27,967 nucleotides of DNA from Smittium mucronatum (Eukaryota; Kickxellomycota; Harpellomycetes; Harpellales; Legeriomycetaceae), in assembly GCA_001953115.1 (NCBI GenBank), contig LSSL01001093.1, forward strand, positions 1 through 27,967. The letters run 5' to 3'. A program made the translations under genes and the position numbers. How positions within the stretch are numbered: position 1 is the first letter of the stretch; every line of letters starts with the position of its first letter. Of the stretch, positions 7,582 to 21,200 are shown piece after piece. The notes beneath the pieces are model-generated. The model was given only the letters and a program-made list of their open reading frames with translations. It had not been told where the DNA came from and did not search any database.

Positions 7582-8139
7582 TTAAAGACGGTGGACCGAA
7601 AAATCGGCGGAAAATGAAACTGGATAAATCTTCAGCTGCTGTACCCTGACCTGAAAATTGGCCTCCAGGACATTGGGAAAATGAGAATGGGGACATTCCG
7701 GACCGTCCAGCGACGATCAAATATGAAATTTTTAGATGAAAGATTTTAAAAAAAATGCCCCTTCTGCAAAATCGATGTGCCCAAAACTGTCGATCACATC
7801 TTATTAAATTGCTCCCGATGGGGCATACAGCAAAATGAGACGATCGGCCGGTTCATACCAGCACCGATCCGCTCAAACATAAAAAATAAACTTTCTAATT
7901 TCAATGAATCCCGGTTGGGGATGGTTGTAAAACTACTTGGGGGGGAGTCTAAACATAATTTAAGTCAGCTCCAAGCTGACACCACTGATCATAAATTTGT
8001 GCTGGAAACAGCCAAATTTCTGATTGGAATCCAAGTGCCACGAAAACTTAAGTTCCAGAGTATAAGTGATTCACCAGCCCCATTGAACCAATGCCCTCGA
8101 GGTATGGAGCTGCTAGAGCGGCAGAGGGGAGTTGGGTGA
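7582..8139 (+). pseudogene. C-terminal end of a non-LTR retrotransposon polyprotein, broken
   Basis: One frame can be read from 7582 to the TGA at 8137-8139, interrupted by TGA at 7615-7617 and TAA at 7747-7749 (the latter at an A8 run). After the second stop comes a zinc-knuckle-like CX2CX9HX4C motif: Cys codons at 7756, 7765 and 7810, His at 7795, in the context CPFC...DHILLNC. Before it lies a stretch with RMGTF and a basic QRRS segment. This pattern (a short basic region, then C-C-H-C, then a variable tail) is typical of the part downstream of the reverse transcriptase in LINE-type ORF2 proteins. No RT core (YxDD) is present, so the copy is 5'-truncated. From 7750 to the stop the frame is open for 129 codons, so decay is moderate. 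The clade cannot be fixed from this fragment. Confidence 0.75.
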
Positions 8140-8180
8140 ATTTTTTTAAATTAGTTTTTATAACTTTTTATTAACTTAAA

Positions 8181-8225
8181 AATAAATTTTCCGTAAAAAA
8201 AAATAAAATAAAAATAAAAATAAAA
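8181..8225 (+). other. 3' terminus and A-rich tail of LINE copy 1
   Basis: AATAAATTTTCCGT (8181-8194), containing the AATAAA signal, leads directly into A-rich simple sequence. Similar motifs end the second LINE copy (11086-11099) and the ribozyme element (14378-14390). This is the expected place for a 3' recognition or cleavage sequence in a poly(A)-tailed non-LTR element. Confidence 0.55.
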
Positions 8226-10941
8226 TTGATTTATTCACATCAGTTCCTGACGGTTATCCTTTTATAATTCAAGCCCATTTATTGAAAATTTAAATTTAAA
8301 AACATGAAATAATAAATATTTAAACATTTTTTAAATATTTATTTTTTTATCAAAATTTAAAAGTTTAAAACTTTATCAAGTTTGTAATTCTTCAAAATTC
8401 CAAAACCAAATTTCTACTCTTTTGTTTCTCATCTTTAATAAGTTTTAGATTTTTTTTTACGATATGTATATTTTACCCTTTTATTTTAAAATGAATATAT
8501 TAAATTATATTTATAAGAATTTTTTTAATAAATGCGGAGATTTCTTATGATGCAACGCAAATCCAATCATAAATAATAATACTGGTTCCATAAAAATGTT
8601 AATTATTTTTGGATATTTATGTGTTAGATATTTTTTTTTTAATGGAAGTATCTACTATCTTTGAATTTTCACACATAAATAATGTTACCGAGGCGTATAT
8701 TAAAATCAAAATGTATTTGAGATTAAGATTAGATATACTTATATAAAAATTATGAATCGAAGCAGAATTTAAATCAATTTTTTAGAAATATATTTTGAAA
8801 ATTTTAAATCTGTTCCTCCGCATTGAAAAAACTTGGTTTAAAATGGAAAAATTTCAAGAATTTTTATAGAAATAAATGGGTTTCAACTGTTTTTACTAAG
8901 TGCATGAATAGTAAACCAAAACCTACAAAGGAATGATTGGCATATATATATATATATAATATAAATCAATTTTGTTGATTTTTTAAAGCGAATTACATTA
9001 TTTTTTCTCCAAATTTTAATTTTTTTATTCAGGTTAATCAAATCAAAGAAAATCCCAGTTTCATTAGATAAATTTTTTTTCTATGCTTTCCATGATTATT
9101 ATAATAGGATATTGGACCTTGTATAAAATTTAGCAAGAAATTTAATTTAATTTATATCTGTTATAAATATAACAATATATATTAGTTATCGTTTTTTTAT
9201 TATATTCCTAAAATATACATAGAAATAAAACATAATTTAGCAAAGAGTTATAACAAATAATTTTAAAGAAAAGTGTCTAAAATAAATAAATTGAGTAAAA
9301 ACATGATTATATGTATGTATTAATTTTGGAACCCAATCCGAAAAATTGTTCAATCTAAATTCATTCGTTCATTATTTACCGATTTTCCTGAAATTTTTAA
9401 TTAATTTTTATCTGTAAAAATATTAAAAAAGATCCTGCTTAATACTAAATAAGGTTAAAAAATTATATATTTAGAATCTTGAATTTATTTAATTTATCTT
9501 AAACCAATTTAATACCGTCAAAGAATATCATGAAAAAAAATCAAAGTAATAATATATTCTTCGGGAAAAAATATTATTTGTTTTTTGCTTTGATTTTAGA
9601 ATAAAGATTATTTAAAGTCCAATTTAAAAAAATTACATAGATTAAATAAAATTCATCCTTAGAATATTTCTTAGAAAAAATATATCTAAAAATTAGTTAA
9701 AAAAAAATTCAGATAAATTTAAAAGCCAAAGGTCAGGGGTTCATAAAGATACACTTAAAAACGGTTTTTACTAAAATCAAATTATTTTATAACATATGTA
9801 TCGATTTTTCTAACTTATTTTGATTGAGAGATATATATAGTTCTATTTACACAAACTTTAATTCTCATCAAATTGAAAAAAATCTGGAAAGAGATGCGAA
9901 TGTTAAAAAAAAGGTGCTATTTTCTCAATTTTTTAGGGTAAAATGGATTATAAACAAAAATAGCATATAAAATATAAATTCAAAAATTTTATTCTTTTTT
10001 TTGAAATATTAATTTAGGTAGATCGAAAGTGAGTTGATTTTTTTCAAATTAATCATAAAAATTAAAAAAAACGATTTTTGAAACAAAAAAAAAAATCTAA
10101 ATTCCAAATACTACAGTTTAAAATATTAAAAAGAGGTGAGTGATTTCAATTTATCAAGACATATATATATATATTAAAAATTTAAGTAGTATATAGTTAC
10201 TAATTACACAATGATTAATAATAATATTTAAATTGATATTGATTAAAAAATGCTACTCGAAATAAATCGAATTTGAAATAAGTTTATAAAAATATTGTTT
10301 AATTTGAATTTTTTCTTTTACATATTTAATATTTTTTTTCTTTAAAAAAATTTAAAAAATAAAAATTTTAATATTTTTTTGATACTATTAAGGATCTATA
10401 AAAAATATCTTAGATTTTTATTGACAATACTTCAAATAATTAAACAAATAATGAAAGATAGTTATGATAATTAAAGTGCGTTTAAAAGAATTTAACATAA
10501 GAAAATCACTACTAATTAATTGAATTTATCTTTTTAAAAGATGTATATTTTAAATTTAAACAAAGAGAAATAGCCATATCTTGCCCCCTCTTTATAATTA
10601 TTTAAGTTCAAATTTTAGGCTTAATATCCAAAATTGATTTTATAGAATTTAAAATTTTTTTTTTTCAAAGGATGAGGTGATTTTTAAGGAATAAACATTA
10701 TTTTATTATTAATATAAAAACTAAATATTTCACACTTTATAAAAAAATAGTTAAAAATATCCATATAAAAAATTAGTTGTCGATATAAAAAATGATGAAA
10801 TTTCAAGCAAATATATAATCATACACAGAAAACAAAATAAGTAATAAAAATATCAAAAAATTAATAATTCATATTAAGTTTTTTTAATTATATTTATTGG
10901 TTATTTTTTAAATTAAAATAGAAAATTTTCTAAATTAGAAA
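8226..10941. other. AT-rich spacer
   Basis: About 2.7 kb of A/T-dominated sequence with stops in all frames. It contains an (AT)n run at 8942-8958 and shorter AT runs near 10160. I see no gene, RNA or clear element. Confidence 0.7.
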
Positions 10942-13156: not shown

Positions 13157-13171
13157 TTCATAAATAATATA
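13157..13171. repeat. Target-site duplication of the ribozyme element, left copy
   Basis: TTCATAAATAATATA ends at the base before the ribozyme P1 helix. The copy at 14410-14424, right after the A-rich tail, differs at one position of fifteen. A 15-bp duplication in exactly this arrangement is the hallmark of target-primed retroposition. Confidence 0.85.
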
Positions 13172-13250
13172 CCCCTAAGAGTGAAATACCTTGCCGTGGT
13201 TTAGGGGCTTAATAGTGTAATTTTTGAAGTACACTAGACTAAAATTTCAC
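13172..13250 (+). ncRNA. HDV-like self-cleaving ribozyme
   Basis: All helices of the nested double pseudoknot can be read in order. P1 is 13172-13178 with 13201-13207 (CCCCTAA/TTAGGGG, 7 bp). P2 is 13181-13187 with 13244-13250 (GTGAAAT/ATTTCAC, 7 bp). P3 is ACC 13188-13190 with GGT 13198-13200, closed by the 7-base L3 TTGCCGT. The P1 3' strand follows P3 with no spacer. P4 is 13213-13219 with 13230-13236 (TAGTGTA/TACACTA, 7 bp) with a 10-base loop. J4/2 is 13237-13243, GACTAAA, with C13239 in the place of the catalytic C75/C76 of HDV. Cleavage is predicted before C13172. P1.1 is less clear: G13193-C13208, possibly with C13194-G13207 at the cost of one P1 pair. The +1 base is C rather than the usual G. 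The fold is seen; activity is inferred. Confidence 0.85.
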
Positions 13251-13253
13251 GCA

Positions 13254-13333
13254 GCGTTGTACTATTCTTGGTTGGGAGTAGTGGAGACAGCGCACAGCGT
13301 TGCACTATTCTTGGTTAGGAGTAGTGGAGACGA
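13254..13333 (+). repeat. 43-bp tandem repeat, upstream of the gap (about 1.9 units)
   Basis: Units start with GCGTTG at 13254 and 13297. Unit two is cut by the gap after 37 bases and differs from unit one by a few substitutions (T/C, G/A, and a change in the GACAG/GACGA end). Tandem subrepeats are common in 5' UTRs of non-LTR elements, where they can act as promoter modules. Confidence 0.85.
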
Positions 13334-13827
13334 NNNNNNNNNNNNNNNNNNNNNNNNNNNNNNNNNNNNNNNNNNNNNNNNNNNNNNNNNNNNNNNNNNN
13401 NNNNNNNNNNNNNNNNNNNNNNNNNNNNNNNNNNNNNNNNNNNNNNNNNNNNNNNNNNNNNNNNNNNNNNNNNNNNNNNNNNNNNNNNNNNNNNNNNNNN
13501 NNNNNNNNNNNNNNNNNNNNNNNNNNNNNNNNNNNNNNNNNNNNNNNNNNNNNNNNNNNNNNNNNNNNNNNNNNNNNNNNNNNNNNNNNNNNNNNNNNNN
13601 NNNNNNNNNNNNNNNNNNNNNNNNNNNNNNNNNNNNNNNNNNNNNNNNNNNNNNNNNNNNNNNNNNNNNNNNNNNNNNNNNNNNNNNNNNNNNNNNNNNN
13701 NNNNNNNNNNNNNNNNNNNNNNNNNNNNNNNNNNNNNNNNNNNNNNNNNNNNNNNNNNNNNNNNNNNNNNNNNNNNNNNNNNNNNNNNNNNNNNNNNNNN
13801 NNNNNNNNNNNNNNNNNNNNNNNNNNN
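13334..13827. other. Assembly gap of 494 N
   Basis: There is no sequence here. The sequence resuming at 13828 repeats that at 13226 with an offset of 602, so this gap lies inside or between repeated 5'-end modules of the element and its stated size may be only an estimate. Confidence 0.99.
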
Positions 13828-13852
13828 GAAGTACACTAGACTAAAATTTCAC
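13828..13852 (+). repeat. Second copy of the ribozyme 3' half (L4, P4', J4/2, P2')
   Basis: The first 34 bases after the gap (13828-13861) are identical to 13226-13259. They carry TACACTA (P4 3' strand), GACTAAA (J4/2) and ATTTCAC (P2 3' strand). The 5' half would lie in the gap. Either a second complete ribozyme precedes this point in a tandem 5' repeat, or the two contig ends overlap and were not merged. Confidence 0.85.
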
Positions 13853-13855
13853 GCA

Positions 13856-13898
13856 GCGTTGCACTATTCTTGGTTAGGAGTAGTGGAGACGACGCACA
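13856..13898 (+). repeat. 43-bp repeat unit, downstream of the gap
   Basis: This is a single unit that matches the truncated unit at 13297-13333 over all 37 comparable bases, then passes into unique sequence (GCGATTCGG). Upstream of the gap the same leader is followed by nearly two units, so unit number differs between the two sides. Confidence 0.85.
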
Positions 13899-14055
13899 GC
13901 GATTCGGAGGACAGCAATTCCAGAGGAGGACCATCTCGAAACAGAAGAAACCTATCGTTTAGCACAGCTGAGACATAGTCTAGTGCACAAGTCCAGCGTT
14001 CAACAGTCAGACGGATCTCAGCGTCTAACAGCTATTTGTAGGAAAGCCATATCGA

Positions 14056-14111
14056 CCAAACCCACGTTTGGGTAGGAGCCTTATTTTATTAATCCTGTTA
14101 GAAGTAGGCTC
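14056..14111 (+). other. Pair of potential RNA hairpins in the element body
   Basis: CCAAAC (14056-14061) and GTTTGG (14066-14071) form a 6-bp stem with a CCAC loop. GAGCCT (14076-14081) and AGGCTC (14106-14111) form another 6-bp stem with a 24-base loop. They lie in the GC-richer, apparently non-coding body of the ribozyme element. Structured RNA is possible but two short stems are weak evidence. Confidence 0.3.
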
Positions 14112-14377
14112 TGAATAGGAGCTCAATAGCTTCAACGAACTGTTGTTCATTGACAAAGAGCTTAATTCATGACTGCACGTAACCTCAGTCATCCAGCCTA
14201 ATTGAAGCAATGCCAGGGAGGGGGGTCTTTCGGTTAGTAGATTGAACCCTTTTCCCATAGGTACGCAACCAGTAGTCCGGCAGAAGAGCTTATTTTAGTT
14301 AGGGTAATAGTCTTTTCTATACGTCTTTTTCTTTTTTTCAAAATTTTTCAGTATAGTTTTTAATGACGTTATCTTAC

Positions 14378-14409
14378 AATAAAATTCCGTGATACAAAAA
14401 TAAAAAAAA
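14378..14409 (+). other. 3' terminus and A-rich tail of the ribozyme element
   Basis: AATAAAATTCCGT (14378-14390), a short GATA spacer, then an A-rich tail to 14409, directly followed by the target-site duplication. The motif is close to AATAAATTTTCCGT at the end of LINE copy 1, which suggests the same reverse transcriptase could recognise both. Confidence 0.6.
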
Positions 14410-14424
14410 TTCATACATAATATA
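14410..14424. repeat. Target-site duplication of the ribozyme element, right copy
   Basis: TTCATACATAATATA matches 13157-13171 at 14 of 15 positions (C for A at the seventh base). It starts immediately after the A-rich tail. Confidence 0.85.
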
Positions 14425-15310: not shown

Positions 15311-15324
15311 CCCCCCCCCCCCCC
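15311..15324. repeat. Poly-C tract (C14)
   Basis: Fourteen consecutive C occur in sequence that is otherwise almost pure A/T. The complementary strand is a G-run that can form a G-quadruplex. Length is prone to slippage and sequencing error. Confidence 0.95.
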
Positions 15325-18239: not shown

Positions 18240-18251
18240 CCCCCCCCCCCC
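18240..18251. repeat. Poly-C tract (C12)
   Basis: Twelve C are followed by AAACCCAC, again isolated in A/T-rich DNA. It is the second of several C or G runs (others at 4976-4988, 6508-6516, 15311-15324 and 25908-25915). Confidence 0.95.
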
Positions 18252-21200
18252 AAACCCACTTTTAAGGGTTTAATTAATTCGATAAATTTTTATATTGAAA
18301 AAATTGGTGTTTAACTCTTATTTAAAACCAATGAATATAATTTAATTCTGATTTTAGTATCTGATTTTACAAAAAAATTTATACTAATTTTCTTTAATAG
18401 AAAATTTTGTTTTTTTCAATTTGAAATTTAGATAAAAATGTGGGAAAATAAGAAATTTAAAAATACCACACTCTATAGAAAAAAAATCATTAAATAGATT
18501 CCTTCTATTTCAGTTATTATTTAATGGAGATTTTATATCAATTATGAGAATATAGCAATAAAAAACTCCAATTAAAAAGATACGCCCAAATTTATGAATA
18601 AATCTCATTATTTTTTTTTACTTAGCTGTTAAGTTATAAAAGTCTTATTAACTAATTATTGTTTCCAAAATAAAATACCATCAGATTTCTAAATTTATTG
18701 GTCGAATAATTTTATACGATTGATATAATATTTATATACCGATTATTAAAGTTTCATATATTTTTTAGCCGAAATAGCTGATCTATTTATTGATAGGTGG
18801 TTTTATATTGAAATAAATTAACATAAATATGAATTCACACTTAATTTCTTGAAAATAACTCTATTCATATATTTATCCAATTAGGTTAATGTAAATATTT
18901 GAATCACTTTATCTCTTTAAAACAAAATTCTAATTATGTTTTGTCTGTTGAAATATCAAAATTTAATTGCTTTATTTTTTTAAATTCATCCAATAATGAG
19001 TAGGTATTATTAATACAGTCTCAAAAATGATCGAAATCCGAAAAAAAATTTATTATTGCAAGCCCTGAAACGGTTGATATTTTTTTGGATACGAAATTAA
19101 ACTACATTATTATCACAGAATTTTATTATTTTCCGTTGAATTTTTAATAAAATCGGCCCAATTAGATATAATTAAATATATATTTAATTTATAAAAAAAT
19201 TGAATGTCATCTTTTAGTGCTCCAGGCTTTGAAAGTGATAAAAAATAAAAAATTGTCCAAATTTATTTAAATATCTAACCTTCCTAAACCAAAATCTTCG
19301 CCTCATTCATATTTGTGTAAATTATAAATTAAAGTATACTCATTTTCTTGATTTATCTAATTATGTATAAATAATATTAATCTTTTGATAGAATTGAGCT
19401 AAAAGTGAAAGCCATGTTTTTTACCATCAACCCTAAAAGTATAAAGAATCAAAGTTATTAAAATAATATTCAATTATACCTATAAATAGTTCAAAAATTT
19501 TCAAAACTATTATTTGAATCTACCAATTACATAATAAAAAATATATACGGTATTTTTAGTTCTGGAAAGACTTTAACAATTGTATATTAGATATTAACCA
19601 AAAAAATATAAAAAAAATAATTTAAACAGCTAATGAAAGCTCAAAAATAATATATATATATAATAATAATACAATCAAAAACTTATTTCTTCCATTAGCG
19701 AATAATTGGATGTATTAATCAATGATGTAAATTTATCTGAAATTCCTCGGGGTTTAAAAATATATTATGTTAATTTTAAATTAGTCGAAGTTAATCTTTA
19801 CAGAAATCACAACAAGAAATCGTGACCAATTTAAAAAAAAGTTTTATTATTATTAAAAAAATAGTTTATATTGAAAAAAAATTCTTTAAATCAAGAGTAA
19901 ATACTTGTTAAATGAATTATTATCGATTTAAAAATATAAAGGGTTAAGTTTTTTTAAATTTGCGGTTAATATCGTTATATTTTTGCAATTGCGATAAGAT
20001 CTCTAACATCAGAAGTTTTTCTTTTTACACTAAGAATTTCAGAAAATATAGACGGTAGCAAAAAAATTAAATTAATTATGAAATAGCTTAGTTTTTTTCA
20101 AAGCTAGTTTCTTGTTTTTTTTTTTCAAATTTTTTATATGAATTAACTCCAGAAAATTAATTTAAGCCAACAAATTTTAATAATACTTTTAAATATCCAA
20201 CAACCAGAATTACTACATCTCTTTTTGAGAAAAAAATTTAACTTAAAAAAGCTGACGAACTTTTAGCCACAATTAACTCAAGATTATATCCAAAAGCAAA
20301 TTATACAGTAAAAATAACTTTTAAAAATTTAAAACACATCTATAAAGCATAGCTAATATATTAAAAATCAAAGAATAATAATTAAATATTTTTTTTCAGG
20401 TAAATTATATTCCCGAATATTTTTAACTTATATCAGTTTAGTATATGGTTGTGAAATAGTTTTATCAAATTTAGGTAAAATTTCTATTCCGCTTATTAAG
20501 CTCTTCGAAATTGTGAAAAATACCTATTCTAATAATTTTCCAAAACACAATTTATTAATATAGAAAATTTCGAATATTTTTGAAATAAAGATTAAATTGG
20601 ATAGCTTTTTGATGCAAAATTTATCTCTCTAGAGTAATAAAATATTATTTAAAAAAAACATTGAATCATTAAAATTCAAATAATATTAAGAAATACCTAA
20701 TATTTACATAATTTAACAAATTTTTTATTTAAAAATTTCAGAATCTATTTAATGATACTAGAAAAATAAATTTTTATTTTATTTTATTCACAAAATCAAT
20801 TAAATTTTGAAGAATTCGAAACTATCAAAAGTATTTAATGTCCCAATAGAAAATTCACTGTTATTTTTTATCAAAAAAAAAATTTCTAGAAATATTTTAT
20901 TGATAACTTGTTAATTTACGGTCATCAGAATCGAATATATCCTCGTTATATTTTTATAATAGAATATTTTATCGTTATAGTATTTATGATATAAGCGAAA
21001 AAAGTTTTAAATTCAAATTAGTGATTTCTGAAAAATAATTGATTAAAATTTCATTTTTTGGGGCTATTTCTATAGTAAATAGAAGGTAATGTTGAGAGAT
21101 AAAAAAATATATTTGAAGGAAAAATAATAATTCACATGTTTTTATTTAAATGGAAGATTATTTTTGAATCAATATTTTTTTCACCAAAGAACCAAAAGCC

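Follow-up and report, generated by a model that had tools for sequence, protein, structure and literature searches.

What opens the insertion found in this stretch of Smittium mucronatum DNA, and does that structure set the point at which the inserted element begins? The species belongs to the Harpellales, commensals of insect guts, and a 102-Mb assembly with 26% G+C has been published (PMC5954228). The stretch analyzed here, which we call the window, is 27,967 nucleotides long and is contig C755 in the 73.8-Mb genome that we searched. One Chitin_synth_1 gene of this genome points to a fungus and matches chitin synthase 1 of S. mucronatum at 99% identity over 83% of the query; the insect cuticle family returned nothing, as did its control. 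Positions 13172 to 13250 had been predicted from the letters alone to form an HDV-like ribozyme. Our analysis gives good support to the HDV-like reading through the layout of the motif, its core residues, and its position exactly at the start of a dispersed retroelement. We consider it highly probable that the window holds a promoterless SINE-like element mobilized by a LINE and that the predicted ribozyme cuts 5' of C13172, setting the 5' end of the element.

HDV-like ribozymes have a nested double-pseudoknot strand order and a P3 of 3 bp. On the forward strand of the window, P1 is formed by CCCCTAA (13172 to 13178) and TTAGGGG (13201 to 13207), P2 by GTGAAAT (13181 to 13187) and ATTTCAC (13244 to 13250), and P3 by ACC (13188 to 13190) and GGT (13198 to 13200), which enclose the loop L3, TTGCCGT (13191 to 13197). 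The P4 hairpin spans 13213 to 13236, with TAGTGTA (13213 to 13219) paired to TACACTA (13230 to 13236), and is followed by J4/2, GACTAAA (13237 to 13243), in which C13239 is the predicted catalytic base. The order is P1-P2-P3-L3-P3'-P1'-P4-P4'-J4/2-P2', all 24 pairs of the window copy are Watson-Crick, and P3 has the expected 3 bp. Four perfect helices of 7, 7, 3, and 7 bp in HDV order, a spacer of zero between P3' and P1', and a J4/2 of GACTAAA with a C at the catalytic position had all been claimed beforehand, and each claim was borne out by the letters. The lengths of P1 and P2 also agree with those described for HDV-like ribozymes, 6 to 7 bp and about 7 bp, respectively (PMC4908430). The model places the likely cleavage site 5' of C13172. 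The unforced minimum-energy fold consisted of P1, P3, and P4 in both 79-nt sequences tried, the window copy and that of locus L005; the folding energy of the L005 sequence gave a z score of -2.89, and that of the window copy was ordinary (z of -0.73). P4 in the majority of the family has 10 bp and a closing UUCG loop, which is better than the shortened 7-bp P4 of the window.

A strict descriptor, written after the motif was known and requiring full-length helices with Watson-Crick pairs only, matched once on the two strands of the window, at 13172. Run on one strand of 94 Mb of random sequence, generated by a first-order Markov model from the dinucleotides of the window, the strict descriptor gave six matches by geometry alone and none when C-N-A-A-N was also required before P2'. 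A loose descriptor, which allowed G-U pairs, P2 from 5 bp, and P4 from 4 bp, matched the AT-rich window 394 and 272 times on its two strands, and the earlier statement that such a fold is not expected by chance is for that reason limited to the strict form. These 666 overlapping matches are what can be said for a chance assembly of the helices. The strict results argue against it, as does the exact coincidence of the motif with an insertion boundary. Moreover, a relaxed descriptor that combined core bases with looser helices, also written after the motif was known, found 29 distinct matches on both strands of 414,142 bases (the fetched loci plus the window, two duplicate loci excluded), and all 29 carried the element's own L3. 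We regard chance assembly as exceedingly improbable. In the model scan that the original prediction proposed, our own strict descriptor found 13172; Rfam at the gathering score gave nothing in the whole window, and none of its HDV-class models matched the ribozyme region of either the window or L005, even at E values up to 10.

The element headed by this motif is about 670 bp long, noncoding, SINE-like, and dispersed, with hundreds of copies in the genome. Of 1468 candidates, the DNA search scored 40, giving 43 matches. Among 32 distinct copies with upstream sequence, 31 start at the same nucleotide, 30 of them with CCCCTAA and one with CCCTTAA. Across the 31 copies, identity is 99.0% over the initial 40 nt of the element and averages 31.8% over the 40 nt upstream, versus 31.2% when shuffled (highest upstream pair, 57.5%). 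The one exception, L036, is missing the first 6 nt and starts directly after its own 14-bp duplication. With one start in 31 of 32 copies, unrelated flanks, and target-site duplications that end at the junction, the claim that the motif begins at the insertion boundary was confirmed. Because most copies had been found with the ribozyme itself, we used a downstream query without the ribozyme as a second sample. This query gave 20 loci, and the 5' junction was present in six of them, window included; five of the six start at the same base.

Exact 24-mers occur 274 times for the 5' end of the element, 448 times for the middle, and 591 times for the 3' end, and an exact 36-mer covering the 5' half of the ribozyme occurs 186 times. 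Since mutated copies escape an exact count and numerous copies sit at contig ends, these figures give a minimum copy number, and the gradient, which would fit 5' truncation, is only a rough sign of it. A 20-mer scan of IMG/VR gave no matches. Two further matches, L027 with L077 at 84% and L078 at 70%, are partial old copies without the ribozyme, and a pattern search for a ribozyme-headed LINE with a different base after P2' gave two matches.

The insertion in the window can be followed from one duplication to the other. The 5' target-site duplication, TTCATAAATAATATA, lies at 13157 to 13171 and ends at the junction, where its last 8 nt form an exact match; it agrees at 14 of 15 positions with the 3' duplication, TTCATACATAATATA, at 14410 to 14424. 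Behind the ribozyme lie about two 43-bp direct repeats (13252 to 13333), the second of which is interrupted by a run of 494 N inside the element (13334 to 13827). The element body (13828 to 14240) begins with a second copy of the ribozyme 3' half (13828 to 13852) and contains no N-free open reading frame of at least 100 amino acids. A LINE-related 3' part (14241 to 14395), its relationship shown on the sister copies L028 and L043, carries AATAAA at 14378 to 14383 and leads into a poly(A)-rich tail (14396 to 14409). Most of the tails inspected likewise end in AATAAA, 12 nt, and poly(A), and some copies vary. Because the duplication flanks the whole, together with the tail and a G+C content of 44% inside the element versus 18% in the flanks, we read the window as carrying one insertion, 13172 to 14409. 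Seven copies were tested for target-site duplications, and five had one. In four of the seven the duplication ends at the junction (exact in L017, L028, and L041 at 15, 13, and 15 bp, and with the one mismatch in the window); the fifth is L036, with its truncated start. None was found for L009 or L011.

The half ribozyme at 13828 suggested a tandem dimer or a retrozyme-like circle. We rejected this arrangement because the two sides of the gap in sister locus L017 agree at 416 of 416 bases, the repeats on either side of the window gap share private variants, and a single duplication flanks the whole; for the window itself we infer the rejection. The L017 identity also indicates that the 494-N gap of the window is probably an assembly artifact made of overlapping contig ends. 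One other copy, L023, has a third 43-bp repeat unit (403 to 667).

Core residues were compared across 32 aligned copies. The first base of L3 (U13191) is a U in all 32 copies; the G five positions later (G13196), at the distance expected of the trans U-G pair, is kept in 30 of 32, and the C before it (C13195) in 32 of 32. In J4/2, the catalytic C and the U-A-A that follows are constant throughout the 32. All counted pairs together with the U, G, and C are intact in 23 copies, and nine show a disrupted pair or have lost one of the core bases. The usual P1.1 of HDV-like ribozymes consists of two C-G pairs, which are absent from the window ribozyme; G13193-C13208 is the only pair possible there, one inverted G-C pair, and both of its bases are invariant across the 32 copies. 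The trans U-G pair in L3 is a signature of HDV-like ribozymes (PMC3386971), and P1.1 helices of one or two pairs have been reported among them (PMC4908430).

In the alignment, pairing is formed in 96.3% of cells, versus at most 50.7% when slid, and across 18 distinct rows no pair among the 27 shows a change in both partners, the ribozymes being 98% alike. With no compensatory change, the alignment neither proves nor disproves the fold. We also sought older copies with a pattern that excluded the usual base after P3'. The seven that were found showed no covariation and resemble decayed members of the same family. Five of the seven (L070 to L074) read CCAAA, with C replacing the U after the catalytic C, and are perhaps an older subfamily.

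These observations bear on whether the 5' structure, though real, is not catalytic now, being either a ribozyme that has lost its activity or a fold retained for reverse transcriptase binding or RNA stability. A P1.1 reduced to one inverted pair and the absence of both covariation and an Rfam match are consistent with such a fold. However, the conservation of the catalytic C and the L3 U in every copy, and of the L3 G in all but two, speaks for a catalytic core, and the predicted cleavage site is also the start of the element in 31 of the 32. In addition, a P1.1 of one pair or two is reported for HDV-like ribozymes (PMC4908430). We therefore consider a noncatalytic fold unlikely and keep to the reading of a ribozyme that cuts 5' of C13172.

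The 3' end of the element points to its partner. The original prediction named R2, RTE, and other non-LTR elements as carriers of such ribozymes; the element here, rather than a demonstrated R2 or RTE element, is a noncoding, SINE-like one with a 3' end related to a local LINE. On the same strand of the window, 7600 to 8230 is a LINE 3' fragment of the candidate partner family, with a C terminus bearing a zinc knuckle (7750 to 8136; CPFC...HILLNC), a 3' untranslated region, and an A-rich tail. Its frame of 129 residues matches the reverse transcriptase (RT)-bearing loci L059, L061, and L065 and also L041, and the fragment, which belongs to the same family as L059 and L061, is 79 to 83% identical to L059, L061, and L041; Pfam gave no match for the part of the fragment starting at 7777. 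The last 150 to 190 nt or so of the element are related to LINE 3' ends of the same genome. When L028 was compared with 21 loci from the RT search, the best match joined its last 190 nt or so to L067, a locus with a short stretch of this kind of LINE 3' end (65% over 193 nt, blastn E of 1.7e-11), followed by L068 (3.6e-4) and weaker others.

Shuffling located this relationship more closely. The 3' 210 nt exceeded all 1000 shuffles for four of seven LINE tails (window, L065, L067, and L005). A 70-nt GC-rich 3' core taken from L043 gave z scores of 10.3, 7.6, and 10.0 against the LINE ends of the window, L065, and L067, respectively, with 0 of 1000 shuffles as high in each case, and was not above shuffles for the other four of the seven tails (L059, L061, L041, and L005). 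A 70-nt T-rich tail was no better than background: it scored 50 against the window LINE and up to 55 at other places in the window, and 9 of 2000 shuffles were as high. Significance is confined to the stretch that holds the GC-rich core. Because the 3' end of the element exceeds shuffles against several of these tails, a LINE of this group likely supplies the machinery. The dispersed copies, the absence of an open reading frame, the target-site duplications, and the poly(A) tail are the features of a SINE or SIDE, and a 3' end common to element and LINE is that of a LINE-mobilized element. Another LINE, at L057 and L076 (contig C2526), has an uninterrupted frame of more than 1200 residues with endonuclease, RT, and zf-RVT domains, preceded by a frame that contains a CCHC-like knuckle; its best-scoring database relative is 29% identical.

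A common 5' end could also be the start site of an internal promoter, with the ribozyme-like fold incidental. L028 contains A-box-like matches, two of them exact and the rest one mismatch away, as well as three B-box-like matches that each have one mismatch, and the Pr77 sequence of trypanosomatids is promoter and ribozyme at once (PMC4035085). Against an incidental fold stands the rarity of the strict ribozyme geometry by chance. The element begins with C, which is an unusual base for a transcription start, and in L028 the AATAAA is preceded by runs of 7 and 8 T, a length that stops polymerase III. Nor was a classical SINE head detected in the window: Rfam at the gathering score gave no match, and hence no tRNA, 5S, or 7SL head, and ARAGORN with bacterial settings found no tRNA. 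We judge a promoter start to be very unlikely, more so than a noncatalytic fold, and prefer a 5' end set by ribozyme cleavage.

The anatomy of the copies suggests how such an element might be propagated. With no detected promoter of its own, the element would be transcribed by polymerase II reading through from host promoters, and the predicted ribozyme would free the element RNA from the upstream host RNA by cutting 5' of C13172. Polyadenylation at AATAAA would define the 3' end and add the poly(A) tail, and the machinery of a LINE with a similar 3' end would integrate the RNA through target-primed reverse transcription.

Nonautonomous elements headed by a ribozyme are already known, and the unusual part here is P1.1. 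Both animals and trypanosomatids have retroelements on record that carry an HDV-like ribozyme at the 5' end. The trypanosomatid NARTc, RIME, and SIDER elements are nonautonomous and carry a Pr77 HDV-like ribozyme at their head (PMC4035085); that 5' end is shared with the L1Tc/ingi LINEs, whereas the Smittium element is tied to its LINE at the 3' end and has a fungal host. The Drosophila R2 SIDE and R2/R1 hybrid SIDE are mobilized in trans and combine a 5' HDV-like ribozyme, as predicted here, with a LINE 3' end; the hybrids have 14-bp duplications (PMC3414825). The Drosophila elements, however, insert in rRNA gene loci, and the Smittium family, whose copies lie scattered over unrelated sites, ends in poly(A). 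With R2 ribozymes the Smittium motif shares the double pseudoknot, cleavage (here predicted) at or near the element 5' end, and the L3 C and G, but a P1.1 stem is described for R2 (PMC3774820), and the Smittium motif has at most one inverted pair and no linked R2 protein.

Fungal HDV variant ribozymes have also been described, with self-cleavage shown for two and with widely variable gene associations, and the Smittium motif has in common with them the fungal host and a C-G pair at the cleavage site (C13172-G13207 here) (PMC5640933). P4 of these variants typically contains a loop E, and an additional base typically separates P2 from P3, whereas the Smittium copies have a plain P4 hairpin and zero bases at that position. 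The word retrotransposon appears nowhere in the main text of that paper as available. Titles and abstract openings in the open-access literature yielded no fungal SINE with an HDV-like ribozyme. We give an even chance to a broader proposal, that there is a fungal SINE class in which an HDV-like ribozyme with a single inverted G-C pair as P1.1 replaces the promoter head and rides polymerase II transcripts, and that the published fungal HDV variants could head similar elements. If true, this would link retrotransposition with a fungal HDV-like ribozyme in a family with 274 exact 24-nt 5' ends, would explain how a SINE spreads with no polymerase III promoter, and would offer a natural test of a ribozyme core that lacks the usual P1.1.

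Several simple repeats were noted as well. The contig that forms the window starts with (TAA)33 in its first 100 nt, runs of 13 to 14 C occur amid very AT-rich sequence at 15311 to 15324 and 18240 to 18252, and one contig begins with a TTAGGG array.
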